A DNA stretch of 31,805 bases from a virus. Of this stretch, positions 986-22,461 are shown piece by piece. How positions within the stretch are numbered: the stretch's first letter is position 1; every line of letters starts with the position of its first letter. Location: the IMG/VR virus record IMGVR_UViG_3300035698_003962, positions 1 to 31,805 of that record. One strand, given 5' to 3'. Under the pieces are notes generated by a model that saw only the letters and a list, made by a program, of their open reading frames with translations, was not told where the DNA came from and made no database searches. The position numbers and the translations under genes are program-made.

Positions 986-3271
986 ATGGGAAATTTAATA
1001 AAAGAATGGTTTAAATCGGTAATTGTAGAATCTATTGATAAGAAAATAGTGGTATATTCTGGGAGATTCCAACCATTTCATTCAGGACACTATAAAACAT
1101 ACGAACATTTAATAAGTAAGTTCGGTAAAGAAAATGTCTTTATAGGCACATCAGACAAGACTGATAACTTAAAATCACCATTTAGTTTTAAAGAAAAAGA
1201 ACAGATTATAAATAAGATGTTCAAAATACCAAAGTCTAAGATTGTCCAAGTCAAAAATCCATATGCACCCGCTGAAATTCTAAATAAATTCGATAAAGAA
1301 ACAACTGCATTTATAACTGTAGTTGGTGAAAAGGATAAGGGTAGACTTAAAGGTAAGTACTTTAAACCATACGAAGCTGGTGGTGAGATTGGATATGCAA
1401 CTAACGGGTATGTTTATGTAGCACCTAGATTATCTAATGTTAGTGGTACTGATGTTAGGAATATGTTATCAAAAGGTGATGATGCTACTAAGATTTCAAA
1501 TTTCAGATCAATATATAAGAATTTTGATAAAAAAATATATGATCTGATTACTTCAAAGTTATCAAATTTATATAATGAAATAATTGATGAATTTATATAT
1601 AAAGTAAAATTGGCAGATATCATCAAAGAGGCATCTACAATACCCGTAAGCGGAAAATCATTAGTAGATGATGGGCCAGGATTTGTTCATGGTAATTTTA
1701 AAACATACACATCAGAGGGTGATGCAGCAGCAGCTGCTCTTGGTTGGGAAGTTATAAATTACTTAATGGATGGTGATATGATGGAAGAGTTTAATACAGT
1801 TTATCCAAACGGCCCTGGTCGATATCAAGTATCATATTTCCCATCGGGAAAGGCAGGCTTAAAAGCACAGTCAATTAGATATGGTGATAATTTCAAAGGA
1901 ACTAAGGCTTACAAAATGTGGGCAAAGCATATTACAAAAGTGGCAACTGTAGTTGGGTATAAGTTAGTTGATTTCTTAGATGCTGATGATTCAATCGAAA
2001 GTTCTAAAAATCAACCAGTAAAAGAAAAAACACCAAAACAGAATATGAATGAGGGTATTATTAACGAAGGTGGTGCATACGGTCATATGAATCACCCATT
2101 TGATATCCAAATGAATTTAACTTTTGATGATTTAAGACAAATAATAAATAAAGCATTAAATGGTAACTTAAAATTAGCTAGAGAAAAAACCGATGGTCAA
2201 GCTCTAGCAATATCATGGAGAGATGATAAAGGGTTGATCGCAGCAAGAAACAAAGGTCATTTAAAAAATAGTGGTGAAAATGCATTAGATATAAGTGGTG
2301 TGGCATCTAAATTTGAAGGTCGTGGTGAGTTATCGAAAGCATATAACTTTGCGATGAATGATTTGAATGATGCAATAAAGAGCCTATCTGCGAAACAACG
2401 AGATATGATATTTATGCAAGGTAAATCTTTTATGAATTTAGAAGTGATATACCCCACATCAGTAAACGTTATACCTTATAATAATGCACTATTGGTATTC
2501 CATAACAGCACTGAATACAATGATGATGGTGTGGCAATTGGTGCAAACCAACCAGCAGCAAGAGTATTATCGGATATGATTAAGGAAGTAAACAAAGATG
2601 TCCAATCTAATTATAAGATTCAGGGACCGCCAGTAGTAGAATTACCAAAGAGTCAAGATTTATCTAAACTTCAATCTAAATTTGATTCACAACTTAATAA
2701 ACTTCAAAAGGAATTTGAACTAAAAGGATCGCAGGGAGTTGCGGATTACCATCAAGCTTGGTGGGAAGCTTGGGTTGATAAGAATTCACCTAAATCTTTA
2801 GATAATCGCACAAAAATGGGATTGGTAAAGAGATGGGCTTTTAATGATAAATCATTTAGATTAGATACTAAAAATCTAAAAGATAACACTGTGTTAGATT
2901 GGGCTAAAGTTACTGATAAGACTGATAAGGATAAGTTAGCAAAAATAAATATCAAGAAATTTGAAGATATATTCTTAGGTGTTGGTGCAGAGGTACTATC
3001 CTTTATGGGTTCTGTATTGGCTGTTAATCCAGATGCAGCAGTTCGTACTATGAAAGCGAGATTAGATCAAACAATAAAGGATGTTAGAAAATCAGGAGAT
3101 TCCAAAAAAATAGAAAAGCTGAAATTGGAATTGGAACGGTTGGCCGCAATTGGTGGTAAAGATAAAATAGTACCCAATGAGGGAATTGTTTTTGTGTATA
3201 AGGATAATACTTATAAGTTAACAGGTGCATTCGCTTCACTTAACCAGATTGTCGGTTTAATGTATTATTAA
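986..3271 (+). CDS. Nucleotidylyltransferase / ligase-like fusion, possibly packaged
   Basis: 761 residues with a good SD (AAGGGG) before ATG 986. Residues 19-200 form an HxGH nucleotidylyltransferase domain of the NMNAT/cytidylyltransferase superfamily: GRFQPFHSGH at 26-35 and the second signature SGTDVRN at 153-159. Residues 216-345 are an unrecognised middle domain. Residues 362-761 carry a covalent nucleotidyltransferase (DNA/RNA ligase-like) signature: KTDG at 401-404 (motif I, nucleotidylated Lys401), FMNLEVIY at 482-489 (motif III-like), EGIVFVY at 732-738 (motif IV) and YKLTG at 743-747 (motif V). The first reaction type moves AMP or CMP onto a small phosphorylated substrate; the second seals or caps nucleic-acid ends. 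The actual substrates cannot be read from sequence. The N-terminus (NLIKEWFKSVIVES) and both domain borders (IIKE-A near 215, IINE-G near 361) fit the T4 prohead-protease consensus [IL]-x-E, so the protein may be packaged and processed in the head. Confidence 0.75.
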   Translation: MGNLIKEWFKSVIVESIDKKIVVYSGRFQPFHSGHYKTYEHLISKFGKENVFIGTSDKTDNLKSPFSFKEKEQIINKMFKIPKSKIVQVKNPYAPAEILNKFDKETTAFITVVGEKDKGRLKGKYFKPYEAGGEIGYATNGYVYVAPRLSNVSGTDVRNMLSKGDDATKISNFRSIYKNFDKKIYDLITSKLSNLYNEIIDEFIYKVKLADIIKEASTIPVSGKSLVDDGPGFVHGNFKTYTSEGDAAAAALGWEVINYLMDGDMMEEFNTVYPNGPGRYQVSYFPSGKAGLKAQSIRYGDNFKGTKAYKMWAKHITKVATVVGYKLVDFLDADDSIESSKNQPVKEKTPKQNMNEGIINEGGAYGHMNHPFDIQMNLTFDDLRQIINKALNGNLKLAREKTDGQALAISWRDDKGLIAARNKGHLKNSGENALDISGVASKFEGRGELSKAYNFAMNDLNDAIKSLSAKQRDMIFMQGKSFMNLEVIYPTSVNVIPYNNALLVFHNSTEYNDDGVAIGANQPAARVLSDMIKEVNKDVQSNYKIQGPPVVELPKSQDLSKLQSKFDSQLNKLQKEFELKGSQGVADYHQAWWEAWVDKNSPKSLDNRTKMGLVKRWAFNDKSFRLDTKNLKDNTVLDWAKVTDKTDKDKLAKINIKKFEDIFLGVGAEVLSFMGSVLAVNPDAAVRTMKARLDQTIKDVRKSGDSKKIEKLKLELERLAAIGGKDKIVPNEGIVFVYKDNTYKLTGAFASLNQIVGLMYY

Positions 3272-4321: not shown

Positions 4322-4996
4322 ATGAAAATAAAATTAATAGAATTATTAGGTAAGGAAAATACCAGACTTAATAAAAAAGTAAAAAAAGAATTAGATGCAT
4401 ACCTTAAAGGCATACCAGTTAACTCTGCAAATTATCAATACGCTGTTATGGTTATGATAGTGGCCGCTGCAAATGATTCAAACTTCCACTCACAGGCGAA
4501 GAAATTCCCATCATTATTTCCTAAAGCAAAATCCCATAAATCTCAAGGTGCTGAATTTGATTCATTAATAAAGGATCGGGGAATTGAAATCGCTAAATGG
4601 GCCAAGTGGGATTTAAATACAATCATAGATGCATTTGCATTTTTCACTAATATGAACATTGGTGGTGGTTTTGGAAACAAACTAAAAACTCTAAAGGTGG
4701 CTGTTGAAGAATCGGTCAATGAAGATAATTCAGATACATATTTCAGATCATTCGCATCAGCAGTTGAATATGCTAGAACATCAACAGAAAAACGTGGGTT
4801 TGAAATCGATGAAGATGATTGGCAAACACAGATAGCATTGGGTGGTAAGTATAATAGAGGTAGACCTTCAATTGGAAAAACACATACATTTGGTATTTCA
4901 TTAAGTAAGAATAAAAAACCCCAAAGAAAATCACTAAGTATATCAGTATTCGGTATGGCTAGTGGTAACTTTGAACTAACTCATTATATAAATTAA
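4322..4996 (+). CDS. Two-domain putative internal head protein
   Basis: 224 residues. I chose ATG 4322 because AAGGAAAT lies just before it; the frame is open further upstream, but that extension overlaps the preceding gene and is low-complexity. The N-terminus MKIKLIELLGKE resembles T4 capsid-targeting sequences. Domain 1 (about 13-125) is helical and unrecognised. Domain 2 (about 138-224) begins YFRSFASAVEYA and contains DEDDWQTQIALG; it looks like a small alpha/beta module of a type I have seen in T4-like phage head-region proteins. The two are joined by EESVNED (129-135), which contains a V-x-E site like that used by gp21-type proteases. Role inferred: packaged protein or fused modules released by cleavage. 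Confidence 0.6.
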   Translation: MKIKLIELLGKENTRLNKKVKKELDAYLKGIPVNSANYQYAVMVMIVAAANDSNFHSQAKKFPSLFPKAKSHKSQGAEFDSLIKDRGIEIAKWAKWDLNTIIDAFAFFTNMNIGGGFGNKLKTLKVAVEESVNEDNSDTYFRSFASAVEYARTSTEKRGFEIDEDDWQTQIALGGKYNRGRPSIGKTHTFGISLSKNKKPQRKSLSISVFGMASGNFELTHYIN

Positions 4997-5003
4997 GGAA
5001 AAT

Positions 5004-5741
5004 ATGAACCTGACTAAATTAATATCAGAAATTATGAATGAAAGTAATAAATTTGATTCAGATACTACACCTATAAAAGAATCATCCATCAAAACAATCA
5101 ATATGTTATTCAAAAACAAAGGGATGAAGGATGCTATCAGAAAAGAAAAGGTTGATCAAATTCGAAAAGCAATCGAAAGTGAGGGTATTAGTACCAAAAA
5201 CGTGAGTGATGATGAAATTTTGACAATAGCAAAAGAACTTAATGAAGTTGCTAATAAAAGAAGATTAAAAGAATCTGTATATACGAATCAGACTGGATTA
5301 AAAACTGCAATGCTGGGTGAGCCAAAACTTAATCGTTTATTAAAGGCTTCTACTGATTCGTGGGCTAGGCGTTCTGATGTCAAAGTGTTCAAAGAAAAAA
5401 GATTCTTCATATTTACAGATGGTAAGCGTGAAATGGTAATAACGCATAGTGATGGTGATTTCAAAGTAATGAAAAAGTTGGGTAGAATAAGCAAAGTTAC
5501 CAAACGACTTTATAATGAATTAGCTAATGAATCCACTGACATCCAATCTGTGCTACTCAATCCCAAAGGGGATAAGTTTGTTGTATCTGAAAGAGATAAT
5601 ACCGTAGCAGGAAATCTAGGTGGATTTACGATGTATATACTAAGCAAATCGGGAAATAATAAAGTAGTGGGATCATTACCATCACTTAAAGAGGCAATTT
5701 CTCATGGTAAAATTAATGGATTTACTAAAAAAATAAAGTAA
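5004..5741 (+). CDS. Putative internal head protein with targeting-like N-terminus
   Basis: 245 residues; AAGGAAAAT overlaps the previous stop and serves as SD for ATG 5004. The N-terminus MNLTKLISEIMNES is amphipathic and contains I-S-E and M-N-E, resembling the T4 capsid-targeting peptide removed by gp21. A helical charged segment (about 28-90) ends in RRLKES (an L-x-E site), followed by a mixed domain (about 95-245) with a beta-rich core (VKVFKEKRFFIFTDGKREM). I recognise no enzyme motif. It follows the two-domain gene at 4322 by 7 bases and is probably co-expressed with it. A structural or injected internal protein is inferred. Confidence 0.55.
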   Translation: MNLTKLISEIMNESNKFDSDTTPIKESSIKTINMLFKNKGMKDAIRKEKVDQIRKAIESEGISTKNVSDDEILTIAKELNEVANKRRLKESVYTNQTGLKTAMLGEPKLNRLLKASTDSWARRSDVKVFKEKRFFIFTDGKREMVITHSDGDFKVMKKLGRISKVTKRLYNELANESTDIQSVLLNPKGDKFVVSERDNTVAGNLGGFTMYILSKSGNNKVVGSLPSLKEAISHGKINGFTKKIK

Positions 5742-6547: not shown

Positions 6548-7384
6548 ATGAATAAACCTATAAAAAGTATAAATCAATTAATAAAAGATGAGTACACTAA
6601 ATGTGCAGCTGATCCAGTATATTTCTTTAAGAAATATTGTTATATCCAACATCCAACACGTGGGAAGATTTTATTCGATACCTTCGATTTCCAAGATGAA
6701 ACTTTAGAAGATTTTAATAATTTCAGATTTAATGTGATATTAAAATCAAGACAGTTGGGTATATCAACACTAACAGCAGGTTACGCATTATGGTTAATGT
6801 TATTTAAAGAAGATCAAAATATATTGGTTATAGCAACAACTCAAGATGTGGCCAAAAACCTTATCACTAAGGTTAAGTATATGCATGATAACTGCCCTAG
6901 TTGGTTGAGGTTAGATACTGAGGAAGCAAACAAACTATCATTAAGATTTGTAAATGGTTCAACAATTAAAGCCGTATCAAGTACAGGAACAGCGGGTCGA
7001 TCAGAGGCACTATCATTATTGATCATTGATGAGGCTGCATTTATTCAAAAAGTAGATGATATTTGGGCTTCTGCACAATCTACACTTTCCACTGGGGGTA
7101 GTGCTATCGTACTTTCCACACCAAATGGTGTTGATAACTTCTTTCATAGCACATGGTTAAAATCAGAAGAGGGTGCCGCATGGAATGGAATACGATTGCA
7201 TTGGACTAGGCATCCAGAAAGAAATCAAAAATGGAGAGATGAGCAATCCGCATTGCTTGGTGATGCAATGGCAGCTCAGGAATGTGATTGTTTGTGGGGG
7301 GAATCTATGGTTACGGTACGTGATACTGAAACGGAAAATATCATAAACGTATCACTTTCAGATTTGTATAATAATTTATATTAA
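6548..7384 (+). CDS. Terminase large subunit, N-terminal (ATPase) half fused to intein N-fragment
   Basis: 278 residues. Residues 1-247 are the ATPase half of a gp17-type terminase: Walker A-like SRQLGIST at 67-74, Walker B with catalytic Glu in LLIIDEAAF at 157-165 (Asp161, Glu162), and coupling motif LSTPNG at 189-194. Residues 248-278, starting CLWGESMVTVRD (Cys248), are an intein N-fragment: Cys1, then a block-A-like strand. The stop after 'LYNNLY' is not decay, because the rest of the intein and terminase lie at 8155-9342. ATP hydrolysis powers DNA packaging through the portal. There is no SD before ATG 6548. The short N-fragment matches the atypically split AceL-TerL/VidaL type of intein. 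Confidence 0.93.
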   Translation: MNKPIKSINQLIKDEYTKCAADPVYFFKKYCYIQHPTRGKILFDTFDFQDETLEDFNNFRFNVILKSRQLGISTLTAGYALWLMLFKEDQNILVIATTQDVAKNLITKVKYMHDNCPSWLRLDTEEANKLSLRFVNGSTIKAVSSTGTAGRSEALSLLIIDEAAFIQKVDDIWASAQSTLSTGGSAIVLSTPNGVDNFFHSTWLKSEEGAAWNGIRLHWTRHPERNQKWRDEQSALLGDAMAAQECDCLWGESMVTVRDTETENIINVSLSDLYNNLY

Positions 7385-8496
7385 TTATACTTATATACAA
7401 GAGTGTGAATGTAAACGGATGTTATATATGGGGTATGTAAAAGATGGGTGGGATAAAATTAAAGATGAATTATCAAATATTGATGAGTTTTATACCATTA
7501 AGCAAACTATACATTTATTAAATACGGATTATTATTATAAAAATTATTTTGGTAGGGCTAGGAATCGCACTATGATAAAACGTAATCCTAAATTATACAA
7601 GTCCATATATGAACATACTGATATTTTAGAAACGACATTTAAAAAATATAATAAATACAAAGGTTGGTATAATTTCAAATACCGTATGGTATTTTTAGTT
7701 GATAATGGTGGTGATATTAACACTTTAAAGTGTGAGTGTGGTCGTACATATAATTGGACTAAATATTGTAGATTCTGCCCAAATCCTAAAAAAACATGGT
7801 TGGGTAAAACACATACAGATGTAACTAAAAAAATACAACGAATAAGTACTTTACAATACTTATCAAAAACCAATGGTCAATTAACACCTAGATATAATAT
7901 CAATTCAATACCAATCATAGAAGCAAAAGCTAAAGAATTAGGAATAACTGATTTACAGCATGCCGAAAATGGTGGAGAATTCCACATCAAAGATCTTGGT
8001 TATTGGGTGGATGGTTATAGTAAAGAAAAAAACATAGTAATAGAATATGATGAACGTCATCATTTCAGAAATGATAAGATAAAAGTGAAAGATATTCAAA
8101 GACAAAACGAAATCGAAACCCATCTTAATTGTAAATTTATAAGGATACGTTGTAATGGATAATCATATATTAAGACATAATCATAAATATGAAATACTAA
8201 CACCATCGGGATATCAATCATTCGCTGGGATTCGTAAGATCTCTAAAGATGTAATATACACCATTATATTATCTAATAATAAAACAATAAAATGTTCAGA
8301 TAATCACCCATTTATTATTAACACTGATATTATCCATTCCAATAAATTAAAAGTTGGTGATATATTAGATGGTGTTGATGATACCATAATTACGATTGTT
8401 GATATTAAGAAAACGATGGGAACTTTGAATTTATTTGATGTCGTTGATGTTAATGGTGGTAATTTATTTAATGTTGATGGTATAATTTCACATAAT
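7289..8496 (+). mobile_element. Atypically split intein with internal homing endonuclease gene
   Basis: Intein N-fragment from Cys at 7289 (about 31 residues), free-standing endonuclease gene 7419-8162, and intein C-fragment 8155-8496 (114 residues) ending Ser-His-Asn before the +1 Cys. It sits between ATPase and nuclease domains of TerL (extein junction AQECD/CDFITSG). This gene layout matches the 'fractured gene' arrangement described for phage split inteins with Vsr-like endonucleases. Confidence 0.88.
7419..8162 (+). CDS. Vsr/EDxHD-like homing endonuclease lying inside the split intein
   Basis: 247 residues from ATG 7419. A zinc-site module has Cys105, Cys107, Cys117 and Cys120, followed by KTWLGKTHTDVTKK (125-138), which resembles the NUMOD3 DNA-binding element of homing endonucleases. 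The C-terminal 60 residues carry GYWVDGY (194-200) and IVIEYDERHH (206-215), then a downstream basic helix; this fits the Vsr-like EDxHD nuclease fold described for endonucleases between split-intein halves. Its expected job is to cut intein-free terL alleles so that the element spreads. The frame is open upstream without an ATG to about 7347 (reading ...YIQECECKR), so the N-terminus is uncertain. The stop overlaps the C-fragment start by 8 bases. Confidence 0.8.
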   Translation: MLYMGYVKDGWDKIKDELSNIDEFYTIKQTIHLLNTDYYYKNYFGRARNRTMIKRNPKLYKSIYEHTDILETTFKKYNKYKGWYNFKYRMVFLVDNGGDINTLKCECGRTYNWTKYCRFCPNPKKTWLGKTHTDVTKKIQRISTLQYLSKTNGQLTPRYNINSIPIIEAKAKELGITDLQHAENGGEFHIKDLGYWVDGYSKEKNIVIEYDERHHFRNDKIKVKDIQRQNEIETHLNCKFIRIRCNG

Positions 8497-9342
8497 TGTG
8501 ATTTCATCACATCGGGTTATGGTGTTGTCGATGGTTCTATATTGGAGTGGTATAAAGAGAATCATGTTGTAGATCCATTAGAAGAACGTGGTTTCGATGG
8601 TAATTATTGGTTGTGGAAATATCCAGATTATGATAAAAATTACATCGTTGTGGCCGATGTCGCGCGAGGTGATGGTAAGGATTTTTCAACATTCCATGTT
8701 TTCGATGTAGAAACTGTAGAGCAGGTTGCTGAATACAAAGGTAAGATAGAAACAAAACCTTTTGGTGAGATGTTAGTGGCCGTCGCTATTGAGTGGAATA
8801 ATGCAATGTTGGTAATAGAAAACGCCAATGTTGGTTGGGCTGCGATACAACCCGCAATCGATAGACATTATGAAAACCTATATTATTCATATAAAGATTT
8901 TGGATATGTTGATGATGAAGTTCATCTACAAAGTGCCTATGATATGGCAGATAAATCCAAAATGGTTCCTGGATTCTCAATGACAACTAGGACACGACCT
9001 TTGGTTATATCAAAACTTGATACATATATGAGAGAAAAAGTGCCGATAATTCACTCAATTAGACTTATAAATGAATTATTTGTATTTGTTTGGATGGGTT
9101 CTAAGGCAATTGCTCGTAATGGGCATAATGATGATTTAGTAATGGCATTTTCTACAGCTTTATGGGTGAGGGATACCGCACTTAGACTTAGACAAAAGGG
9201 TATTGATTTAAATAGAAGTGCAATACAACATACTACAAAATCAAATACATTCTATAGTAACACCCAACGAGCTCAATCCGACAAGTACTGGAATATGAAT
9301 ATAGGTGGAAAGCATAGTGAAAATATAAAATGGTTGCTGTAA
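8155..9342 (+). CDS. Intein C-fragment fused to terminase large subunit nuclease half
   Basis: 395 residues; SD AAGGA lies inside the endonuclease gene, ATG at 8155. Residues 1-114 are the intein C-fragment with block-B-like KCSDNHPF (His51), a block-F-like LFDVVDVNGGN region, and the terminal His113-Asn114 followed by +1 Cys115. Residues 115-395 are the gp17 nuclease half: acidic residues in VVADVARGDGKD (Asp168), MLVIENAN (Glu222) and GHNDDLVMA (Asp326/327), an RNase H-like metal site that cuts concatemeric DNA. Trans-splicing with the product of 6548-7384 would give about 528 residues, similar to other T4-like terminases. Confidence 0.92.
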   Translation: MDNHILRHNHKYEILTPSGYQSFAGIRKISKDVIYTIILSNNKTIKCSDNHPFIINTDIIHSNKLKVGDILDGVDDTIITIVDIKKTMGTLNLFDVVDVNGGNLFNVDGIISHNCDFITSGYGVVDGSILEWYKENHVVDPLEERGFDGNYWLWKYPDYDKNYIVVADVARGDGKDFSTFHVFDVETVEQVAEYKGKIETKPFGEMLVAVAIEWNNAMLVIENANVGWAAIQPAIDRHYENLYYSYKDFGYVDDEVHLQSAYDMADKSKMVPGFSMTTRTRPLVISKLDTYMREKVPIIHSIRLINELFVFVWMGSKAIARNGHNDDLVMAFSTALWVRDTALRLRQKGIDLNRSAIQHTTKSNTFYSNTQRAQSDKYWNMNIGGKHSENIKWLL

Positions 9343-11289: not shown

Positions 11290-12141
11290 ATGAAGAAATT
11301 TAAACATAGCAAGTACAAAAATACGGGTATTCTTTTTCAATTACTTATAAGACAGGTCGTATCGGATACCTTAAATGATAAGCAATCAGCAAAGGCGCTT
11401 TCTATTATAAAGGAACATTTTGGTAAGAAAACTGAATTACTAAAGGAGTATCGATTGTATAAAACGCTAATGGATGAGTCATTTGATTCTGAATCAAAAG
11501 CTACTGAATTTTTATCAATTATTATTGATAAGAGGTCTAAGTTAAATGATAATTTATTATCCAGAGAGAAGTATAATTTGATAAAAGAAATTAAAAAGAT
11601 TTATCCTATTAATGAATTTTTTAATTATAGAGTATCTAACTATAAAGAAAACGCATCGGTGTATAAATTATTTGAATATAGTAAATCGGAAAACCCAAAG
11701 GAATTTATTGAAAATAAAGGTACGTTATTAGAGCATATATTACAATCTAATAAAGTAGAAGCTCAATCATTAAATCAGTTGAATGATGATTACAATTCTC
11801 AACCAAAAGATATTAGACTATTAGCTTGGAAACTTCTTGTTGATGGTTTTAATACTAAATATACTATCTTATCAAAACCACAGAAAACTATATTACGAGA
11901 ATATATTAACGCTGTGGATAATACTGAGTACTTAAAGGAGTATGTTAAAGCTGAATGTACGAAGATTCAGAAAGCTTTTAGTAAATTGGATATAACAGAT
12001 ACTATGGTGAAAATCAAAGTAACAGAGGTATTGAATTTGGTTGAAAACATTAAGACTTCGAAGAAAATCACCGAATCAGAAATACTTTCAATTCTAAGAT
12101 ATCACGACTTATACAAAGAAGTAAAACGGAATTTCAAATGA
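11290..12141 (+). CDS. Conserved hypothetical head-cluster protein
   Basis: 283 residues, strongly helical and Lys/Glu/Leu-rich, with no membrane helix or catalytic motif that I recognise. The N-terminus KFKHSKYKNTGILFQLLIRQV is conserved-looking and may bind a partner. It lies directly after the portal gene and its stop overlaps the next start (ATGA), so it belongs to the portal-to-protease head operon. In T4 this interval holds the prohead core genes 67 and 68. A helical core or assembly factor would fit, but homology to either is not visible. Confidence 0.65.
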   Translation: MKKFKHSKYKNTGILFQLLIRQVVSDTLNDKQSAKALSIIKEHFGKKTELLKEYRLYKTLMDESFDSESKATEFLSIIIDKRSKLNDNLLSREKYNLIKEIKKIYPINEFFNYRVSNYKENASVYKLFEYSKSENPKEFIENKGTLLEHILQSNKVEAQSLNQLNDDYNSQPKDIRLLAWKLLVDGFNTKYTILSKPQKTILREYINAVDNTEYLKEYVKAECTKIQKAFSKLDITDTMVKIKVTEVLNLVENIKTSKKITESEILSILRYHDLYKEVKRNFK

Positions 12142-12647
12142 GAAAAACATTATTAGAACAATTAGAAGATAAGTTTGAAGAAGTTGAATCCATTGCAGAG
12201 GATGAAATTGAAGAAGCTAATGTAACTGGTAATATGGATGGTGGTGCAGGCCCCGCTAAAACGCCACACACGTTCGGTGATGGTAAGAGCGAACCGAGTG
12301 GTAATCACATTGAGGTATTAGGTTATAAGAAAACAAAACCATCCAATATGCACACTAAACGACTTCAAGAGCTAGAACGTAATTTGGAAAATCAAATATT
12401 AGAAATTAGTTATAAGGATTATAAAAAAGATGATACTCGAAAAGATTATCAAAAGATAAATGATTCTATTATTAAAATTAATAGAATGGTTTTCGAAATG
12501 GAGAAGTTGGTTAATTTGAATATCAAACTTAAACAAGAATCATCAGTATCAAATGCAAAATATTGGGAATCTACTAAAAAGAACTTTGGGAAGATTTCAA
12601 AACGAATGTTAAGAATCAGCCGTAAAATCACGGAGCTTAATTTGTAA
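12138..12647 (+). CDS. Conserved hypothetical, possible prohead core protein
   Basis: 169 residues with ATGA overlap to the previous gene. The N-terminus (MRKTLLEQLEDKFEEVESIAEDEIEE) is acidic and helical, followed by a Gly/Pro-rich motif GNMDGGAGPAKTPHTFG (51-67) of a kind I associate with T4-like marine phages at this locus. A long charged helix (about 95-165) follows. Acidic targeting-like N-terminus, small size and position between portal and protease genes fit a gp67/gp68-type prohead core component. This is a positional inference. TAATG coupling links it to the next small gene. Confidence 0.6.
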   Translation: MRKTLLEQLEDKFEEVESIAEDEIEEANVTGNMDGGAGPAKTPHTFGDGKSEPSGNHIEVLGYKKTKPSNMHTKRLQELERNLENQILEISYKDYKKDDTRKDYQKINDSIIKINRMVFEMEKLVNLNIKLKQESSVSNAKYWESTKKNFGKISKRMLRISRKITELNL

Positions 12648-12778
12648 TGAGTGATAAGAAATTAATAAAAGAAGAATTTACTAATAAAGAGCTTGAGGCT
12701 ATTAGAAACATAATACGATCTGAAATGGCTGAGGTATTCTTTGATTTATACCGAAAACGAAGTGTATGGAAATCCTAA
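12647..12778 (+). CDS. Small 43-residue helical protein
   Basis: ATG 12647 overlaps the previous stop (TAATG), and its own stop overlaps the next start in the same way, so it sits in an unbroken coupled chain. The peptide begins MSDKKLIKEEF and contains IRSEMAEVFFDLYRKRSVW: an amphipathic helix with an aromatic, basic end. The tight coupling on both sides is the main evidence that it is real. Function unknown; likely a small head-assembly or core factor. Confidence 0.6.
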   Translation: MSDKKLIKEEFTNKELEAIRNIIRSEMAEVFFDLYRKRSVWKS

Positions 12779-13011
12779 TGAGAACTAAAATGATAAAATT
12801 AAAAGAATTAATGAATGAGGGTATGTTGAATGAAACTCAATGGTGGATGATGGTAGACCATCACTTGAAAGTTTTAAAAGCAGGATTGGTAGCAGCTGAC
12901 GGCAAAAAAATAGAAGCTCTTAAAGAAAACCAAGCTATGAAAATAGTTGATAATATTGAAACCTTAATGGGTAGTTTGGAAAAACATAATATTGCTAAAT
13001 TTAAATTTTAA
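12778..13011 (+). CDS. Small protein with capsid-targeting-like N-terminus
   Basis: 77 residues from ATG 12778 (TAATG overlap); ATG 12790 would give MIKLKELMNEG as the exact start. The first 20 residues contain LKELMNE-G and MLNE-T, two close fits to the T4 gp21 cleavage rule ([ILV]-x-E with cleavage after Glu). The mature part would be about 60 residues of helical protein (TQWWMMVDHHLKV...). It lies immediately upstream of the protease gene. By analogy with T4 internal proteins it is a candidate packaged small protein; no sequence family is recognised. Confidence 0.6.
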   Translation: MRTKMIKLKELMNEGMLNETQWWMMVDHHLKVLKAGLVAADGKKIEALKENQAMKIVDNIETLMGSLEKHNIAKFKF

Positions 13012-13025
13012 TAGGAATTGGAACG

Positions 13026-13655
13026 ATGAGTGAATTATTAATAGACACAATACCATTTAAATTATCTAAGCAGGATTTGAATGAAGCTAAATCCAATAAC
13101 AATGGTAGGTTCATCGTACAGGGTGTTATCCAACGAGCCGAAGCTGAAAACCAAAATGGTAGAATATATCCTAAAACACTTCTTGCTAGAGAGGCTAAGA
13201 ACTATGCCGCTAAAGAGATAAAAGAAGCTAGGGCATATGGTGAGTTAGACCATCCAGAAACATCGGTTGTCGAGCTTAAAAACACATCACACATCATTAG
13301 AGAAGTTTGGTGGGAAGGTAATGACCTTATGGGTAAAGTTGAGATATTAAAAACACCATCTGGTAATATTCTAATGGAATTATTAAAAGCACAATGTACC
13401 GTTGGTATATCATCAAGAGGTATGGGTTCGGTGAAAGAATCAGCAAATGGTAAAACTGTAACGGTAGAGGATGATTTCAATTTAATATGTTGGGATTTCG
13501 TATCAAACCCATCAACACATGGGGCATTCTTAAAACCAACCAATGAATCGGTAAATGAATCGGTTAAATCAACTAAAAAAATAAATAACTATTCAAACAT
13601 AGATAATATTGTAAGAGATATTATATGTGAAGTAAATGGAGTGTGTGGAATATGA
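13026..13655 (+). CDS. Prohead maturation protease (gp21-like)
   Basis: 209 residues, the usual size for gp21. Serine protease of the herpesvirus-assemblin-like fold: His76 in GELDHPE, Ser129/Ser130 in VGISSRGMGS, and Asp157 in CWDFVSNPS complete the expected signature. It degrades the scaffold and trims capsid and internal proteins after [IL]-x-E sites. The C-terminal tail contains NESVNES (173-179), which itself fits a V-x-E site and may be an autoprocessing point. AGGAATTGG lies before ATG 13026, and the stop overlaps the following gene (ATGA). Confidence 0.92.
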   Translation: MSELLIDTIPFKLSKQDLNEAKSNNNGRFIVQGVIQRAEAENQNGRIYPKTLLAREAKNYAAKEIKEARAYGELDHPETSVVELKNTSHIIREVWWEGNDLMGKVEILKTPSGNILMELLKAQCTVGISSRGMGSVKESANGKTVTVEDDFNLICWDFVSNPSTHGAFLKPTNESVNESVKSTKKINNYSNIDNIVRDIICEVNGVCGI

Positions 13656-15793
13656 AATTAATAGATATGCTAAATAGTAAAAAGAGTCAGAAGCTAACTC
13701 TATTAGAAGAACAAGCTTTACATAATTTCGAAATGGGGCATGTATATTCAAACCCATATCATACTGCATTTGTAAAAGAAGCTGATACGCCACTTAAATT
13801 TAAAGTTGGTGATTACATTATACAAAAAACATCAACAGGTGGCTCAGGGGGTTATGTGATATCTAAACACCCATCACTGGGTTATAGGTTGGCAGATCAA
13901 TGGGGTGGTACTGATAAGAAGTACTTCAAAGAAAAAGGATTCAAAAAAGATGCCGCTAAATCCAAAAAAGTACAATCATTTCCAAAGGTTATGGCTTTAA
14001 TTAAATCTAAAGAATTAACAACAACTAATAAATTGGGCGAATCGATTACTGAGGGTAAGTATGATTCAATACTAGATAAAATCGCTGGTATTGTAAAGAA
14101 TAGTAAATCGTTTATGAGTATTGGTGCTGAATTAAAAAAGAATGGTATAAAGTATGATTTTATGACGGCAGATGCACCAATGCCTGCTGCTATGTACACA
14201 CTCAAAAACCCAAAAATAGTAATTCTTAATAAGAAATACGTATCAGGTGCAGAACGAGAAGTTGGTGATATCGCAATCGGTCTAATGGAGTCTATTAATG
14301 AAGATGCAAGTCACGAAGCACAGGGAATATCGCATTATACAGGAATGAGAGCTACTGCTGTACAGAAATTCATTGATGATAATAAATTAAATGCTAGAAA
14401 GTTACTTTCATATGTAACTCGTAATACTGATGGTGCTCGTACAAAAGTGATAACTGCGATATCAGGAAAACCAAATAATCCAATGGCTAAAAAAGTAATG
14501 AAAGTTTTTAAAGAATCTATTAATGAAGATGCAAAGAAAGTTTGGAAGGATGGTAATAATCTTTACGTAGATAGTGACTTCGTTAATATGAGTAAGGGTA
14601 ATTTACCTAATTCAGAATTAAAACATTTGGGAATGGGTGATTTCTTTTTAGATACACCAGACGGTAAGATTAATTTTAATAGAAGTGGTGATAAACTTCC
14701 AGGTATGAGTGGTAGAAGTCATAAGATGTCAGACTCTAATGGTGGTAAGCTGATAGCACAATTAATTAAAAAAATGGGTGCAAAAATAGTTAACGAATCG
14801 AAAGTATATAATTGTGGTACACCTTCACTGATGGATTTACTTAGAGAGCAAACTGAATATGAAAAGTTCTTCCAATCAGCACTTAAAAAGTTTGATGTGA
14901 AATCTCCTGATGAAATCGAAGGTGATAAAAAGAAAGAGTTCTTTGATTATGTAGATAAGAACTGGGATGCTGGTGAGAATGAAACTGATGTTGATGAGGC
15001 TAAGACCGCTAAAACTAAGAAAGATTCAAAATCATCTAAGAAATCTAAAAGTGATTATTCATTAGATGGGATGTTTGGTGATGTAAAGAAGCAACTAAAA
15101 GGAATCACAGCAATAAAGAAAGAATCGGTAAATGAAGGAGTGAAACGATTCTATCAACAAGATGGTATTGGTAAAGCAAAATATACTATATCGTATCACG
15201 ACGGAAAATCAAAACATAATGATGGTGGTGACTTCTATGGTATCAGAATATTTAAGAATAAAAAAGAATTAGAAACGTTTAGAAGTGAACTTTTGAAAAA
15301 AGGATATAGAGCGGATAGTGGATTTAAAAAAGAATCGACGAATCAGAATATCAGATTTGAAAGTATGGATTTGTATGGGACTGGTCGATTGGTTGAATTC
15401 AATCTGAATCTTAGTGATTTGGATTTTGGACTTTCATTAATATCAGGAATCGTCGGAGTACCATTGGCTGCACTTTTAGCAATGCATGCAGAGGATGGTA
15501 TGAAATCAATATCTGCGTTACTAAAGAAAAAGAGTAAAAATAAAGCATCAGTATCAGAATCATCGTATAATATACCATCATTAGTATCTCTACTTTCAGA
15601 AAAGAAATATGATATCGGTATGGGTCATAAAGGAAATGGTGTTACTGTATGGAATAAATCAGAAGAGGTAAGTGGTGATTATAAGACAATAGCACACATT
15701 ACTGATAGTGGTAAAATTACATACCATGATAAGGCATTACCATCTGATGTTAAGAAGACGATAGAAGCTGCAGCAACTAAAATGAAAAACTAA
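13652..15793 (+). CDS. Multidomain head-region polyprotein-like protein with protease-site linkers
   Basis: 713 residues from ATG 13652, which overlaps the protease stop (ATGA); an in-frame GTG at 13643 adds only three residues. It starts with a targeting-like MKLIDMLNSKK and then reads as a string of unrelated small domains separated by near-identical linkers: ESITEG (130-135), ESINEDA (213-219 and 288-294), IVNES (379-383), ESVNEG (491-496), plus internal targeting-like PSLMDLLRE (391-399) and PSLVSLLSE (642-650). Each contains [ILV]-x-E. Segments include a Lys/Asp-rich disordered stretch (about 438-470), a hydrophobic helix (about 591-611) and a final 60-residue domain (KKYDIGMGHKGNGVTVWN). 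No enzyme motif is recognised. I infer a cargo polyprotein, packaged and cut by gp21. Confidence 0.65.
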   Translation: MKLIDMLNSKKSQKLTLLEEQALHNFEMGHVYSNPYHTAFVKEADTPLKFKVGDYIIQKTSTGGSGGYVISKHPSLGYRLADQWGGTDKKYFKEKGFKKDAAKSKKVQSFPKVMALIKSKELTTTNKLGESITEGKYDSILDKIAGIVKNSKSFMSIGAELKKNGIKYDFMTADAPMPAAMYTLKNPKIVILNKKYVSGAEREVGDIAIGLMESINEDASHEAQGISHYTGMRATAVQKFIDDNKLNARKLLSYVTRNTDGARTKVITAISGKPNNPMAKKVMKVFKESINEDAKKVWKDGNNLYVDSDFVNMSKGNLPNSELKHLGMGDFFLDTPDGKINFNRSGDKLPGMSGRSHKMSDSNGGKLIAQLIKKMGAKIVNESKVYNCGTPSLMDLLREQTEYEKFFQSALKKFDVKSPDEIEGDKKKEFFDYVDKNWDAGENETDVDEAKTAKTKKDSKSSKKSKSDYSLDGMFGDVKKQLKGITAIKKESVNEGVKRFYQQDGIGKAKYTISYHDGKSKHNDGGDFYGIRIFKNKKELETFRSELLKKGYRADSGFKKESTNQNIRFESMDLYGTGRLVEFNLNLSDLDFGLSLISGIVGVPLAALLAMHAEDGMKSISALLKKKSKNKASVSESSYNIPSLVSLLSEKKYDIGMGHKGNGVTVWNKSEEVSGDYKTIAHITDSGKITYHDKALPSDVKKTIEAAATKMKN

Positions 15794-16055: not shown

Positions 16056-16283
16056 ATGAGTTATAATAAAACAAATAGTATTTCAGATAAAATAACAGGA
16101 ACTAAAGTAGTGGTTCATAAGAAGAACATCGGCCACGCTTTAAGCTTATTCAAAAAAAAAGTTATTGAAAGTGGAAAGTTGGAACGATATCGAGATATTC
16201 AAGAATATACTAAACCATCGGAAAAACGTAGAGTACTTAAAGCAAATGCCATTCGTAGAAATAAAAAAGAGCAAAATTCATAA
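16056..16283 (+). CDS. rpsU: Phage-encoded ribosomal protein bS21
   Basis: 75 residues matching bS21 in size and pattern: a basic start with VVVHKKNIGHALSLFKKKV (19-37), ESGKLERYR, then the signature YTKPSEKRR (51-59) and a Lys/Arg-rich tail. bS21 sits near the anti-SD at the 3' end of 16S rRNA and influences start selection; phage copies are known and have been linked to late infection. The usual Bacteroidota tail (RRAQ...AxYIQ) is not present. There is no SD in the A-rich leader. It stands alone between two TATTTATA boxes, directly ahead of the scaffold and capsid genes. Confidence 0.87.
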   Translation: MSYNKTNSISDKITGTKVVVHKKNIGHALSLFKKKVIESGKLERYRDIQEYTKPSEKRRVLKANAIRRNKKEQNS

Positions 16284-16431: not shown

Positions 16432-17355
16432 ATGAGTAAGAACAAAGATTTATTAAAAGAAGCTATAGCTGATGCGAAGCAGGTTAAAGAAACTGCTATT
16501 CAAAATGCTAAATTGGCTTTAGAAGAAGCATTTACACCATCAATTCAATCAATGATTTCAGAAAAGCTTGCAAAGGAAGCTGATGAAGAAATGGATGATG
16601 AAGATGATATGGATGAAAATGTTAACGATGACGAAGATGATGAAGATGATGTTAACGAAGATGTTAATGAAAGTGATGTTGAAGATGATGAAGATGATGT
16701 TAACGAAGATGTTAATGAAAGTGATGATGAAGATGAAGATGATGACGAAGATGAGCTTGACTTAGAATCTGTAATCGCTGAATTGGAAGCTAACGAAGCA
16801 AAATCAGTTAAGGAAGCAAAATCAGTTAAGGAAGATGAAGATGAAGATGAAGATGAAGATGAAGATGAAGATGCAGATGAAGATGAAGAAGAACTTGATC
16901 TTGATGAAGTAATCAAATCTATTCGTGAAATGGATGATGAAGAAGATGAGGAAGATGAGGAATCTATGGATGAGGTAAAATCTGAATTAGCAGAAGCATA
17001 TGACACAATTTCTGAATTGAAATCTACGTTGACTGAAATTAACATTCTAAATGCAAAACTTCTATATACGAATAAATTATTTAGAACGTTTGATTTGACT
17101 GAAACCCAAAAAGTAAAAGTATTAGAGAACTTCGATAGAACATCTAATGTTAGAGAAGTAAAACTTGTATTTTCAACTTTAGCTGAAAGCCTAACCACAT
17201 CATCTACTAAACGTCGATTTGTGAAAGAGGGTAAAGCATCAAATGTTGTAAAGAGCACAAAACCATTAGTTGAGAATACAATTATCTCAGAGAATGTACA
17301 AAACAAATTAAGATTTCAGAAATTAGCTGGAATGAACAAAAAAAACAAAAAATAA
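16432..17355 (+). CDS. Prohead scaffold / core protein (gp22-like)
   Basis: 307 residues with a strong SD (AAGGAG). A helical N-terminus (MSKNKDLLKEAIADAKQ) is followed by a very acidic Asp/Glu tract (about 50-180) and a helical C-terminal half ending LRFQKLAGMNKKNKK. Position directly before the capsid gene and the composition fit T4 gp22, the internal scaffold that gp21 later degrades. The acidic tract repeats DDVNEDVNES, which contains V-N-E sites matching the putative cleavage motif seen elsewhere in the cluster. A Ser-rich frame on the opposite strand is only a mirror of this acidic tract. Confidence 0.85.
   Translation: MSKNKDLLKEAIADAKQVKETAIQNAKLALEEAFTPSIQSMISEKLAKEADEEMDDEDDMDENVNDDEDDEDDVNEDVNESDVEDDEDDVNEDVNESDDEDEDDDEDELDLESVIAELEANEAKSVKEAKSVKEDEDEDEDEDEDEDADEDEEELDLDEVIKSIREMDDEEDEEDEESMDEVKSELAEAYDTISELKSTLTEINILNAKLLYTNKLFRTFDLTETQKVKVLENFDRTSNVREVKLVFSTLAESLTTSSTKRRFVKEGKASNVVKSTKPLVENTIISENVQNKLRFQKLAGMNKKNKK
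16640..16900 (+). repeat. Low-complexity Asp/Glu-codon repeats in the scaffold gene
   Basis: Two near-identical copies of the block encoding DDVNEDVNES about 50 bases apart, then two tandem copies of GCAAAATCAGTTAAGGAA, then a run of GATGAA hexamers around 16830-16875. Copy number is likely to vary by slippage. Confidence 0.7.
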
Positions 17356-17370
17356 ACGGAGAAACAATAA

Positions 17371-18984
17371 ATGGATATTTCAAAAATGTTAACAGAAGGT
17401 CGATCTCACCAAATGAGACTTACCGATGAGACAGCAGCTTTGGTTAAAAAATGGAAAGACACTGGACTTCTAGAAGAAATCGAAGATGATATAACAAGAT
17501 CGGGTATGGCTACCCTGCTTGAAAATCAAGCGAAACAAATAGTAAAAGAAGCGTCCCAGACAGGTACTTCTACAAATTCAGAAGAATGGGCTGGTGTAGC
17601 ACTTCCTTTAGTTCGTAGAATCTTTGATGAGATTGTAGCTAAGAACTTTGTATCAGTACAACCAATGAACCTACCATCAGGTCTAGTTTTTTATCTAGAT
17701 TTTAAATATGGTACGAACCAACCTGGATTCGCAACAGGATCAGGAAAGGATTCACAAGAAGATTCAGTATTCGGTATTACCGATACTACTGGCGATCCAT
17801 CTGGTGGTCTTTATGGGGCAGGTCGATTTGGTTACACAATCAATGATACTGACACAGTAATACAAGCATTAGGTGCTACACCTGCTACAAACGTATACGC
17901 TACTGGTTCAGTAGGTGAAGTTGATTATAACTACGATTCACAATTCTCAGCATCAAACACAGTAGGTTTGGGTGATGGTACAATTGCAACCGTAACAGTA
18001 CCAACTGCATCATTACCATCATTTGATTCAAAAGGTATTAGAGCATTTAGATTAACAGGTGTTACGGATCAATTCCCAGCATACACTAGATTGCAAGGCC
18101 CTAACGTTGTCTTTGTGGCAAAATCAGCAGCATTCGCATCTATTAAAGTTGTGTTCCACAAACAACCAACTGATACTTCTAGAGGCGATTTTGAAGCATC
18201 ACCAACGTATGATACTACACTTGACATTCCAGAATTGAATGTTGAAATGAAATCAGAACCAATTGTAGCTAAGACACGTAAGTTGAAAGCACAATGGACG
18301 CCTGAATTTGCACAAGATTTAAATGCTTATCATTCAATTGATGCAGAAGCTGAATTAACATCTATGTTATCAGAATACATTTCGCAAGAAATTGACTTTG
18401 AGATTTTAGATATGTTGATTCAAGATGCTAAAACTACTGGTTACTGGTCAACGCAAGTTGGACGTGAGTGGACTGGAAACGGTTTTGGTGATTTCTCAAC
18501 AACACAAGCACAATCATCAGCATATACGCAACAAGCATGGTTCCAAACTTTGGGTACTGTAGTAGCGGGTGTTTCTAACAAGATTCACCAAAAAACATTA
18601 AGAGGTGGGGCTAACTTTATGGTCGTTTCTCCAGATGTTTCCACTATTATAGAATCTATCCCAGGTTACGCATCATCTGCGAACAATGGTGATTCTGAAT
18701 ACGCATTTGGTGTAACTCAAATTGGTTCACTTAATGGTCGATTCAAGGTTTACAAGAATCCTTATATGAAGGACAACGTTATTTTAATGGGTTATAGAGG
18801 AACGCAATTCCTTGAGACTGGTGCAGTTTACTCACCATACATTCCATTAATTATGACTCCACTTGTATACGATCCACAAAACTTCACCCCAAGAAAAGGT
18901 GTCATGACTCGTTACGCGAAGAAGATGTTGAGAGGTGAATTCTACGGAAAAGTTCTTGTTGACGGATTGCACAGAATTCAGTAA
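17371..18984 (+). CDS. Major capsid protein (gp23-like)
   Basis: 537 residues, close to T4 gp23. SD CGGAG precedes ATG 17371. After a roughly 60-residue propeptide the sequence shows the typical gp23 join: IVKE-AS (cleavage expected after Glu60), then WAGVALPLVRRIFDEIVAKNFVSVQPMNLPSG (73-104), closely matching the start of mature gp23. The C-terminal part has the conserved GYRGTQFLETGAVYSPYIPL region (about 475-495). The extreme N-terminus MDISKMLTE-G is another L-x-E sequence like those of the neighbouring putative head proteins. A strong terminator follows. Confidence 0.95.
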   Translation: MDISKMLTEGRSHQMRLTDETAALVKKWKDTGLLEEIEDDITRSGMATLLENQAKQIVKEASQTGTSTNSEEWAGVALPLVRRIFDEIVAKNFVSVQPMNLPSGLVFYLDFKYGTNQPGFATGSGKDSQEDSVFGITDTTGDPSGGLYGAGRFGYTINDTDTVIQALGATPATNVYATGSVGEVDYNYDSQFSASNTVGLGDGTIATVTVPTASLPSFDSKGIRAFRLTGVTDQFPAYTRLQGPNVVFVAKSAAFASIKVVFHKQPTDTSRGDFEASPTYDTTLDIPELNVEMKSEPIVAKTRKLKAQWTPEFAQDLNAYHSIDAEAELTSMLSEYISQEIDFEILDMLIQDAKTTGYWSTQVGREWTGNGFGDFSTTQAQSSAYTQQAWFQTLGTVVAGVSNKIHQKTLRGGANFMVVSPDVSTIIESIPGYASSANNGDSEYAFGVTQIGSLNGRFKVYKNPYMKDNVILMGYRGTQFLETGAVYSPYIPLIMTPLVYDPQNFTPRKGVMTRYAKKMLRGEFYGKVLVDGLHRIQ

Positions 18985-21297: not shown

Positions 21298-22461
21298 ATG
21301 GCAGTCGACATACCAATTTGGCCGGGAAGTTCATCATTTGTAGCAGGAACTACACCATTTGGTTTCTATGATACTGATCTTGATTTTACAATAGATATTG
21401 ATAGAGTTTCATCGTGGTGTGCGACGAGACTTGGGTATCCAATTGTAGATATTGAATTACAAGATATAAATTTTTATGCTTGTTTTGAAGAATCTATAAC
21501 AGAGTATTCATCTCAGATAAATCAATATCAACTCAGAGATAATTTACTTAGCTTGCAGGGGTCACCCACATCATCAAATTACTCACAAGCGTATGTAAAT
21601 AGTAATTTTGGTGGATTGGTATCAATTGCAAGGGATTATGGTTCTGAGGCTGGTAGTGGTGGTCGTGTTAATTATTATACAGGATCTTTCCAAATCGAAA
21701 GAGGTAAGCAATTATATGATTTAACAGATACATCATCCGTTAAATTGGAAGTAGGTGTCGCTGGGTTAAACGTTATAGAGATAAAGGAATTACTACATTA
21801 TGCACCACCAGCAGTGGCTAGGTTTTTTGATCCAATGGCGGGTTCAGGAATGGGTTCTCAGCAAATGTTACAGGGATTTGGATGGGGTAATTATTCACCA
21901 GGCGCATCTTTCTTAATGCAACCGATGTATGCTGATTTGTTGAGAATGCAAGCAATTGAGTTTAATGATCAAATACGAAAATCACAATATAGTTTTGATA
22001 TAAAAAACGATAGAGTGCGAATATTTCCAATACCAAATTATGATGGAGATGATCTAAAAATCCATTTCCATTATATACTAAAAAGTGAGAGAAGTAATCC
22101 TGTAATTTCGAAATCAGTAGTTAGTGATTCATCAAACGCAAGATATGATAACATACCATATTCTCAAATAAACGATGTAGGTAGACGTTGGATACAGAAA
22201 TATACATTAGCAATCGTAAAAGAAATGTTGGGTGCGGTTAGAAGTAAATTTAGTTCAATACCAATACCTAATTCTGAAATCACTATGGATGGTGATGCGT
22301 TACGAAGTGAGGGTGCGGCAGAACGTGAGCAATTAATTGAAACGTTAAGAGTTGATTTAGATGCCACTTCTAGGAAAGCACTTTTGGAAAACAAAAAAGA
22401 TGAGGCTGAATTTTTAAATGATACATTGAGTCGAATTCCAAACTTTATATATATAGCATAA
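21298..22461 (+). CDS. Neck protein (gp13-like)
   Basis: 387 residues; SD GAGG. The N-terminal region (about 30-80: DRVSSWCATRLGYP, FEESITEYSSQINQY) and the C-terminal core (about 295-350: WIQKYTLAIVKEMLGAVRSKFSSIPIPNSEI) are characteristic of T4-like gp13 neck proteins, where the KEMLG...RSKF...IP motif is well conserved. gp13 with gp14 forms the neck that closes the filled head and joins the tail. It is longer than T4 gp13 (309 residues), mainly through a Gly/Ser-rich middle. The gp14-like gene follows after 10 bases. Confidence 0.85.
   Translation: MAVDIPIWPGSSSFVAGTTPFGFYDTDLDFTIDIDRVSSWCATRLGYPIVDIELQDINFYACFEESITEYSSQINQYQLRDNLLSLQGSPTSSNYSQAYVNSNFGGLVSIARDYGSEAGSGGRVNYYTGSFQIERGKQLYDLTDTSSVKLEVGVAGLNVIEIKELLHYAPPAVARFFDPMAGSGMGSQQMLQGFGWGNYSPGASFLMQPMYADLLRMQAIEFNDQIRKSQYSFDIKNDRVRIFPIPNYDGDDLKIHFHYILKSERSNPVISKSVVSDSSNARYDNIPYSQINDVGRRWIQKYTLAIVKEMLGAVRSKFSSIPIPNSEITMDGDALRSEGAAEREQLIETLRVDLDATSRKALLENKKDEAEFLNDTLSRIPNFIYIA

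Follow-up and report, generated by a model that had tools for sequence, protein, structure and literature searches.

A candidate prohead-cargo polyprotein of linker-bounded modules encoded directly after the gp21 protease gene of a T4-like phage

The stretch of viral DNA analysed here, positions 1 to 31,805 of IMG/VR virus record IMGVR_UViG_3300035698_003962 (the window, 31,805 nucleotides), carries head genes in T4 order: gp20 (9383), open reading frames (ORFs) of 283, 169 and 81 amino acids (aa) and gp21 (13026), followed by an ORF of 713 aa, an S21-like ribosomal protein (16056), a gp22-like scaffold (16432) and gp23 (17371). Our subject is the 713-aa ORF (13652..15793, plus strand), whose start ATG overlaps the stop codon of the gp21 gene; the ORF, placed right after gp21 in an earlier, sequence-only reading of this DNA, is real. 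The gp21 prohead protease itself (13026..13655, plus strand) matches Pfam PF03420 (Peptidase_S77) at E 1.2e-31 and phrog_207 at E 1e-51. We propose that the 713-aa ORF probably encodes a modular polyprotein of prohead cargo that gp21 would release, akin to the internal proteins of T4.

All features of this protein lie on the plus strand. A putative targeting or propeptide region (residues 1-43, 13652..13780), ending in GHVYSNPYHTAFVKE, is followed by S1 (46-134, 13787..14053), S2 (135-217, 14054..14302), S3 (218-292, 14303..14527), S4 (293-382, 14528..14797), S5 (400-450, 14849..15001), S6 (496-560, 15137..15331), S7 (561-650, 15332..15601) and S8 (651-713, 15602..15790). The modular make-up had been recognised before, with a count of about seven domains; we count eight modules, and nine segments were cut for searches. 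The linkers named in the sequence-only reading are present, with predicted cuts after Glu134 (ESITE, 14039..14053), Glu217 and Glu292 (ESINE, 14288..14302 and 14513..14527), Glu382 (IVNE, 14786..14797) and Glu495 (ESVNE, 15122..15136), although the one at Glu382, given as IVNES, has no ES in front. Two further junctions resemble internalised targeting peptides: PSLMDLLRE (14822..14848), which precedes S5, and PSLVSLLSE (15575-15601), within the S7 segment after a hydrophobic stretch, with predicted cuts after Glu399 and Glu650. The motif phi-x-E, in which phi is I, L or V, thus stands at all seven junctions, with V in place of the L/I of the T4 motif at 382 and 495. In T4, internal proteins carry a ten-residue N-terminal peptide that directs them to the prohead, and L/I-x-E is the motif after which gp21 cuts (PMC9026906, like the other papers cited here drawn on in part).

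The linker motif is far more frequent in this protein than its composition predicts. ES[IVL][NT]E occurs four times, against a mean of 0.0036 and a maximum of 2 in 20,000 residue shuffles, and [IVL]xE occurs 15 times against 7.5 (standard deviation 2.4). The 15 sites end at residues 19, 20, 43, 130, 134, 213, 217, 292, 382, 399, 449, 495, 582, 636 and 650; since they outnumber the junctions, and since 582 falls inside S7, some of them are not junctions. A contig of 174,750 bases, identical to the window across the 22,139 bases compared, holds eight ES[IVL][NT]E motifs in 51,713 aa (235 mechanically called ORFs), four of them in the 713-aa ORF. The others lie one each in the gp21 tail, the ORF at 4322-4996, a 387-aa ORF (window 21298-22461) that carries the motif without any sign of a cargo role, and a 1136-aa ORF of the same phage (G001 77918-81325; L087 from 17918 into L088). 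In the last, which has NESLNED among its junctions, a Pfam scan of the first 694 aa found a poly(A)-polymerase-type part (E 3.3e-29), and a ParB-like and an HD-like part were seen by eye; it is possibly an enzyme-bearing cargo polyprotein.

Most of the modules recur in other proteins, in other company. Relatives were found for seven of the nine segments: S1 in one other distinct protein (a 659-aa ORF of locus L095, with S4 directly after it), S2 in seven (alignment A7), S3 in 20, S4 in five (A8), S5 in 70 (with a match to phrog_28651 at E 6.8e-7), S6 in six (85% identity to L098) and S8 in six (A9), the last standing mid-chain in L105, L106, L111 and L019. The order of the modules varies: S3-S2-S8 (L115), S1-S4 (L095), S6-S3 (L134), S4-S8 (L106), S3-S2 (L163) and S2-S3 (L155). 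Cutting 58 linker-bearing proteins of the gp21-neighbourhood set at the motif yielded 189 fragments (median 110 aa) in 115 families, 36 of which have at least two members; in 14 of these 36, two or more different neighbours occur on either side. A tblastn search of phages with the whole protein returned the S5 region only, some alignments extending into S4 (11 records), and searches with two S5-bearing proteins from other clades added 3 and 6 records.

In order to see whether the predicted cut sites coincide with module edges, we compared the sequence around recurring copies with random windows, whose lengths differ by about one residue from those of the pooled modules and S5. With S2, S3, S4, S6 and S8 pooled, 85% of the 40 distinct upstream contexts and 75% of the 36 downstream ones have phi-x-E right beside the module, where random windows have it in 29%. 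Copies of S3 collected by a search with S3 itself behaved likewise: the motif was present upstream in 45 of 50 and downstream in 44 of 50, compared with 23% of random windows; the upstream windows here were up to 20 residues long and the random ones 18, a difference slightly in favour of the result. This S3 set comprises 203 relatives in IMG/VR, from which 80 loci were kept and 78 used (two contigs of the window's own phage were left out); it is only partly independent, because no fewer than 6 of the 78 contigs were already in hand from the gp21 search and copies are repeated (51 of 81 are distinct). In this set, 28 of 48 loci have gp21 within the retrieved flanks, and the most linker-rich ORFs carry nine (L244, 1192 aa) and eight (L227, 819 aa) strict ES[IV]NE motifs. 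When S5 was left out of a test of the boundaries as a whole, 4 of 5000 random junction sets and 16 of 712 circular shifts did equally well.

The sequence-only reading had presented one odd protein; what we found instead is a widespread cassette. Alignment A1 of gp21 gave at least 596 relatives among at least 600 candidate stretches, of which the best 80 loci were kept, two of them (L108, L155) without gp21 by profile. In all these comparisons ORFs were called mechanically, motif counts by gene class include open-ended ORFs, and the related sequences are not independent; before counting we dropped identical ORFs (motif classes), identical contexts (module edges) and contexts alike in the six residues to either side (the residue after Glu). 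Complete ORFs of these loci measure 585-648 aa for gp20, 199-223 for gp21, 142-234 for the core-type protein, 285-419 for gp22 and 492-579 for gp23, and from gp21 to the S21 or gp22 gene there are 156 complete ORFs of 51 to 1001 aa, many of them linker-bearing. These post-gp21 ORFs (163 distinct, 36,895 aa) contain ES[IVL]NE 47 times, against a shuffled mean of 0.24 and a maximum of 2 in 200 rounds; the motif is absent from 69 gp20, 56 gp17, 40 gp22 and 38 gp23 ORFs. A cultured relative, Flavobacterium phage immuto, has an 841-aa ORF with linkers ESVNEG and ESLNED (L100 2111-4633). In L095 the interval also encodes an enzyme of the same class as T4 Alt, an ADP-ribosyltransferase (ADPrib_exo_Tox, E 7.4e-20), which is a hint at a possible role. 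Comparison with about 125 related loci gives strong support to the architecture first read from the window, in which genes are fused, targeting peptides internalised and modules strung on linkers that resemble protease sites, and judged by these alignments the gp21-gp22 locus is a variable cassette in which modules are shuffled as linker-bounded units.

Sequences resembling targeting peptides occur both at the N-termini and within the proteins of this cassette. The first phi-x-E sites of the 713-aa protein end at residues 19/20 and 43, and a block like its residues 1-43 is found at N-termini or internally in relatives; a hand-made pattern for it gave 11 distinct matches, among them the window's own and an evident chance match (L067). 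The sequence-only reading had suggested looking for the same domains as separate genes led by targeting peptides, and for S3 and S5 such forms were found, the module standing first behind an N-terminus that resembles a targeting peptide. Five distinct proteins have S5 first after a targeting-peptide-like N-terminus (e.g. MLSFIDFLTE, MKTYKEFLAE, MRYSELIRE), and in L073 and L080 S5 stands alone behind such a peptide. S3 comes first behind starts such as MKMISLLKEN and MNLKKLITES, and does so in nine ORFs of its set with six distinct starts; in L095 it forms a 78-aa ORF. A targeting-peptide pattern matches 28 of 66 first post-gp21 ORFs (1.8% when shuffled). Internal copies that keep their Met, such as EGTMKLTDLLNED, occur at 25 places in relatives, at least four of which look like chance matches; they look like gene starts that are now read through. 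At some of these places (L104, L105, L106, L111) AGAGG or AAGGG lies a few bases before the internal Met, so that internal translation starts may give separate as well as fused products. That targeting copies are kept inside the chain also means that the single targeting signal assumed earlier may be wrong. Six small ORFs in a row soon after gp21 have similar targeting-like starts (by eye) in the phage record LR756508 (484 kb).

A sequence of four steps would account for these features. By analogy with T4, the N-terminal targeting peptide, perhaps aided by the two internalised copies, would bring the chain into the prohead core. There the protease encoded just upstream would cut after Glu at the phi-x-E linkers, as the motifs suggest, and about eight small, mostly basic proteins would be freed in the head and remain with the DNA. 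Some of them may then enter the host with the DNA, like T4 internal proteins, in roles such as counter-defence; this is the step that we hold least firmly.

The structural models bear on this scheme to a limited degree. The fold of the whole chain has a mean predicted local distance difference test score (pLDDT) of 56 and a predicted template modelling score (pTM) of 0.27, with 354 of 713 residues below 50, and is too poor to prove that the modules are separate. Its ten-residue means reach 87-92 in S5, 66-95 in S6 and 83-97 in S8; the cut sites at 134, 217, 382 and 650 fall in stretches below 50, 292 is flanked by such stretches, and 399 and 495 lie outside them, which says little because half of the chain is below 50. 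A model of S2-S4 is better (pLDDT 81, pTM 0.45), falling below 50 only at residues 216-219, straddling Glu217, and at 174-177, a loop inside S2, and the block at the S3/S4 junction averages 59. Linkers buried in one continuous fold had been named as grounds for abandoning the proposal; the models give no such refutation, and confidence does fall at the S2/S3 junction, yet the check is a weak one. Alignments A5 and A13, in which the fragments were placed adequately, were used for folding, A5 lacking rows for S2, S3 and S7 and misplacing the end of S4; A4 and A10 (the whole protein and all module fragments) and A12 were discarded because they misplaced modules. Foldseek gave no match at E 0.001 or better against PDB, or, for the S2-S4 model only, against viral models, and PADLOC found none in four proteins. 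In a sequence search of PDB, the best of nine matches to the S3 profile, a CAP repeat (E 0.00087) of which no single stretch passes by itself, and one match to P0001 at E 0.084 were taken as chance.

The charge of the modules leaves room for a variant of the proposal in which the cargo is released but stays in the head, where the freed modules would neutralise or order the DNA, and nothing is injected. S1, S2, S3, S4, S6 and S8 have isoelectric points (pI) of 8.9-9.9, as this variant would have it and as in the T4 internal proteins, which are basic, and the whole protein has a pI of 9.4 against a proteome median of 6.0, a value of 9 being exceeded by 26% of that proteome. However, S5 and S7 are acidic, and the high turnover and large pool of modules (115 families from 58 proteins) would fit an arms race better. 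We regard this variant as possible but unlikely.

The linkers themselves bear on a second alternative, namely that the protein is an uncut, beads-on-a-string internal protein whose linkers are flexible hinges, alike only via recombination at short stretches of linker DNA. The DNA is indeed conserved beyond codon usage. With one linker counted per downstream module family (63 families), a single 15-mer, GAATCAGTAAACGAA, encodes 26 of 49 ESVNE linkers where 1.96 are expected, and where a codon identity of 0.523 is expected, linkers of one protein reach 0.815 and those of different loci 0.757; codon bias alone was therefore rejected as the source of the likeness. The linkers of the window are less uniform in DNA, although that at Glu495 shares all 15 bases with ESVNE in the C-terminal tail of gp21 (13545..13559, plus strand), the presumed auto-processing site. 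Because of this conservation, the linkers may double as recombination joints, and shared descent via linker-anchored recombination is the simplest reading; a DNA or RNA signal not recognised so far is also possible.

Several features of the linker peptide speak against mere hinges. The motif recurs in the gp21 tail, where 47 of 57 distinct sequences have NE[SGA] no more than 14 residues from where the catalytic domain ends (TNESVNES in the window), and C-terminal processing of T4 gp21 is expected (PMC9026906); the ES[IV]NE form thus looks like gp21's own site. Junctions of the window with other wording (LLRE, LLSE, ITE, IVNE) still read phi-x-E. In 135 of 196 contexts the linker Glu is followed by A, G or S, as at the propeptide site of the major capsid protein gp23 (17371..18984, plus strand, Pfam E 3.4e-75), where a conserved phi-x-E|A (E60|A61 in the window) stands in the 27 of 37 sequences in which a pattern could place the site. 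We therefore consider an uncut string improbable, and the cargo polyprotein, cut at these sites, remains our preferred reading.

A third alternative draws on the neighbouring core genes. The 169-aa core-type protein (12138..12647, plus strand) is apparently the uninserted form of polyproteins of 458 aa (L095) and 887 aa (L098), the two ends of which match it (A2, 27% identity each over aligned columns); this suggests a series of insertions, from 169 to 458 to 887 aa, in which the extra length is modules. In other T4-like contigs (L040, L043, L044, L050, L055) a gene for the S5 domain lies directly upstream of gp21, which we take to be the place of T4 gp67 and gp68, and S5 may for that reason have begun as a core protein. 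Neither Pfam nor PHROG matches the 713-aa ORF to gp67, gp68 or gp22, a weak test because the window's own scaffold (16432..17355, plus strand), gp22-like by position and acidic repeats and with four [IVL]NE motifs, has no gp22 match there either. That the protein is itself a core or scaffold protein like gp67, gp68 or gp22, cut and expelled, with modules that have no job after assembly, is very improbable, for although its place in the core gene block, the insertions and S5 genes just described and the high density of phi-x-E in gp22 (65 per 1000 aa) and the core-type protein (42, against only 25 in post-gp21 ORFs) speak for it, the modules are diverse and swapped wholesale, the post-gp21 ORFs vary far more in length than either core class, and the linkers sit at module edges.

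Several observations weigh against the proposal that the 713-aa protein is cargo released by gp21. Its support comes from sequence comparison and models; family and fold searches tied no module to a known function. S7 and the stretch 451-495 have no relatives in the other proteins searched. For S5, the most widespread module, the excess of upstream phi-x-E is smaller (56% of 63 copies, where random windows give 36%), and S8 has the motif downstream in none of six. With S5 included, alignment edges lie only modestly closer to the linkers than chance would put them: 86 of the 5000 random sets of junctions, and 64 of the 712 circular shifts, do as well as the real boundaries. By this clade's gp17, gp20, gp21 and gp23 profiles, 70 of 78 loci with S5-bearing relatives have no head gene nearby. 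The N-terminal MKLIDMLNS does not carry the terminal [LI]xE of a T4-type targeting peptide, and the targeting-peptide pattern also fits 20 of 47 gp17 and 37 of 60 core-type N-termini and 54 of 412 other ORFs, so that it is unspecific and no proof by itself. Lastly, 42 more copies of ES[IVL]NE lie among 389 further ORFs that total 92,931 aa; we looked at part of these, and some linker-bearing ORFs outside the post-gp21 class are similar polyproteins upstream of gp17.

Further genes of the window resemble the 713-aa ORF in part; all four that follow are on the plus strand. The 81-aa ORF (12766..13011) has a targeting-peptide-like N-terminus, IKLKELMNE, by sequence and pattern scan. A second, small candidate polyprotein of 224 aa (4322..4996) starts with MKIKLIELLGKEN and consists of two segments joined by ESVNED (4709-4723), the first of which resembles segments after ESINE in L114 and L120 (by eye). 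A candidate cargo protein of 245 aa (5004..5741) starts with MNLTKLISEIMNES and has a segment that resembles the 458-aa insert of L095 by eye. A 761-aa ORF (986..3271; the same protein in L084) carries a nucleotidyltransferase (Pfam CTP_transf_like E 1.3e-6; NCBIfam nucleotidyltransferase matches, one above cut-off) fused to more segments across KLADIIKEAS and INEG, and is possible enzyme cargo.

Some observations on the surrounding genes stand apart from this question. The S21 ribosomal protein homologue (window 16056-16283, Pfam E 3.4e-10) lies within the head block between polyprotein and scaffold, and was recognised at the corresponding place in relatives (16 complete ORFs). The terminase large subunit gp17 (window 6548-9342) is divided among ORFs 6548-7384, 7419-8162 and 8155-9342, a layout that resembles an intein or homing-endonuclease insertion (by eye) and recurs in L131 (274/246/395 aa, against 278/247/395 aa). 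The portal gene of L095 is interrupted by an intein/HNH-like insertion (1-1944, by eye), and the ADP-ribosyltransferase ORF of that locus (6625-7626) has a targeting-like stretch close to its N-terminus; a similar-looking ORF in Mel-JY01 has no Pfam match.

Beyond the single protein, it is a real possibility, although we would put it somewhat below an even chance, that a T4-like clade loads its cargo in modular fashion via a conserved 15-bp linker and that its polyproteins together are a large library of counter-defence and take-over proteins, injected as infection begins. Any small domain so linked would be encapsidated and released automatically, because the linker DNA would be at once a recombination joint and the code for a protease site copied from the gp21 tail. 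If our reading of the 713-aa protein is right, tailed phages too load and release head cargo through polyproteins, and the linkers would offer a route by sequence to candidate injected proteins of uncultured phages, beginning with the 58 linker-bearing proteins found around gp21. The cargo boundaries would then be predicted to the residue, and what T4-like phages inject would therefore be testable outside T4. The conservation of the linker DNA hints in addition at a mechanism of module swapping.

The literature surveyed on head proteases, internal and ejection proteins and phage proteomes, mostly open-access and in part, describes no phage cargo polyprotein. Several known systems are comparable in part. 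The Dar proteins of P1 (DarB) are capsid-targeted counter-restriction cargo with an N-terminal signal, which the 713-aa protein resembles as read here, but they are separate large proteins, for which no linker-strung modules are described (PMC9024508). Inner-body proteins of SPN3US and phiKZ are cut after Glu by a relative of gp21 (PMC5694885, PMC9026906), a site of the same type, and the SPN3US ejection proteins enter the cell (PMC7411985); cleavage there, as described, removes propeptides, whereas here several proteins would come from one chain. The T4 core proteins gp22, gp67 and gp68 are cut by gp21 into multiple fragments (PMC9026906), as predicted here; most of these fragments leave the T4 head, whereas the sites in the 713-aa protein flank exchangeable modules. 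Closest are IPI, IPII, IPIII and Alt of T4, small, basic and diverse proteins with an N-terminal targeting peptide, a gp21 site ([LI]xE) and a T4-type head programme (PMC9026906, PMC3012670). Many T4 internal head proteins are ejected into the host (PMC9026906, PMC3012670), Alt as an ADP-ribosyltransferase (PMC9026906). Each T4 internal protein has a gene of its own and is processed at its ends, whereas the present chain unites about eight modules and has sites in its interior; as the rule of one protein per gene fails, the 713-aa protein is not an ordinary T4 internal protein.

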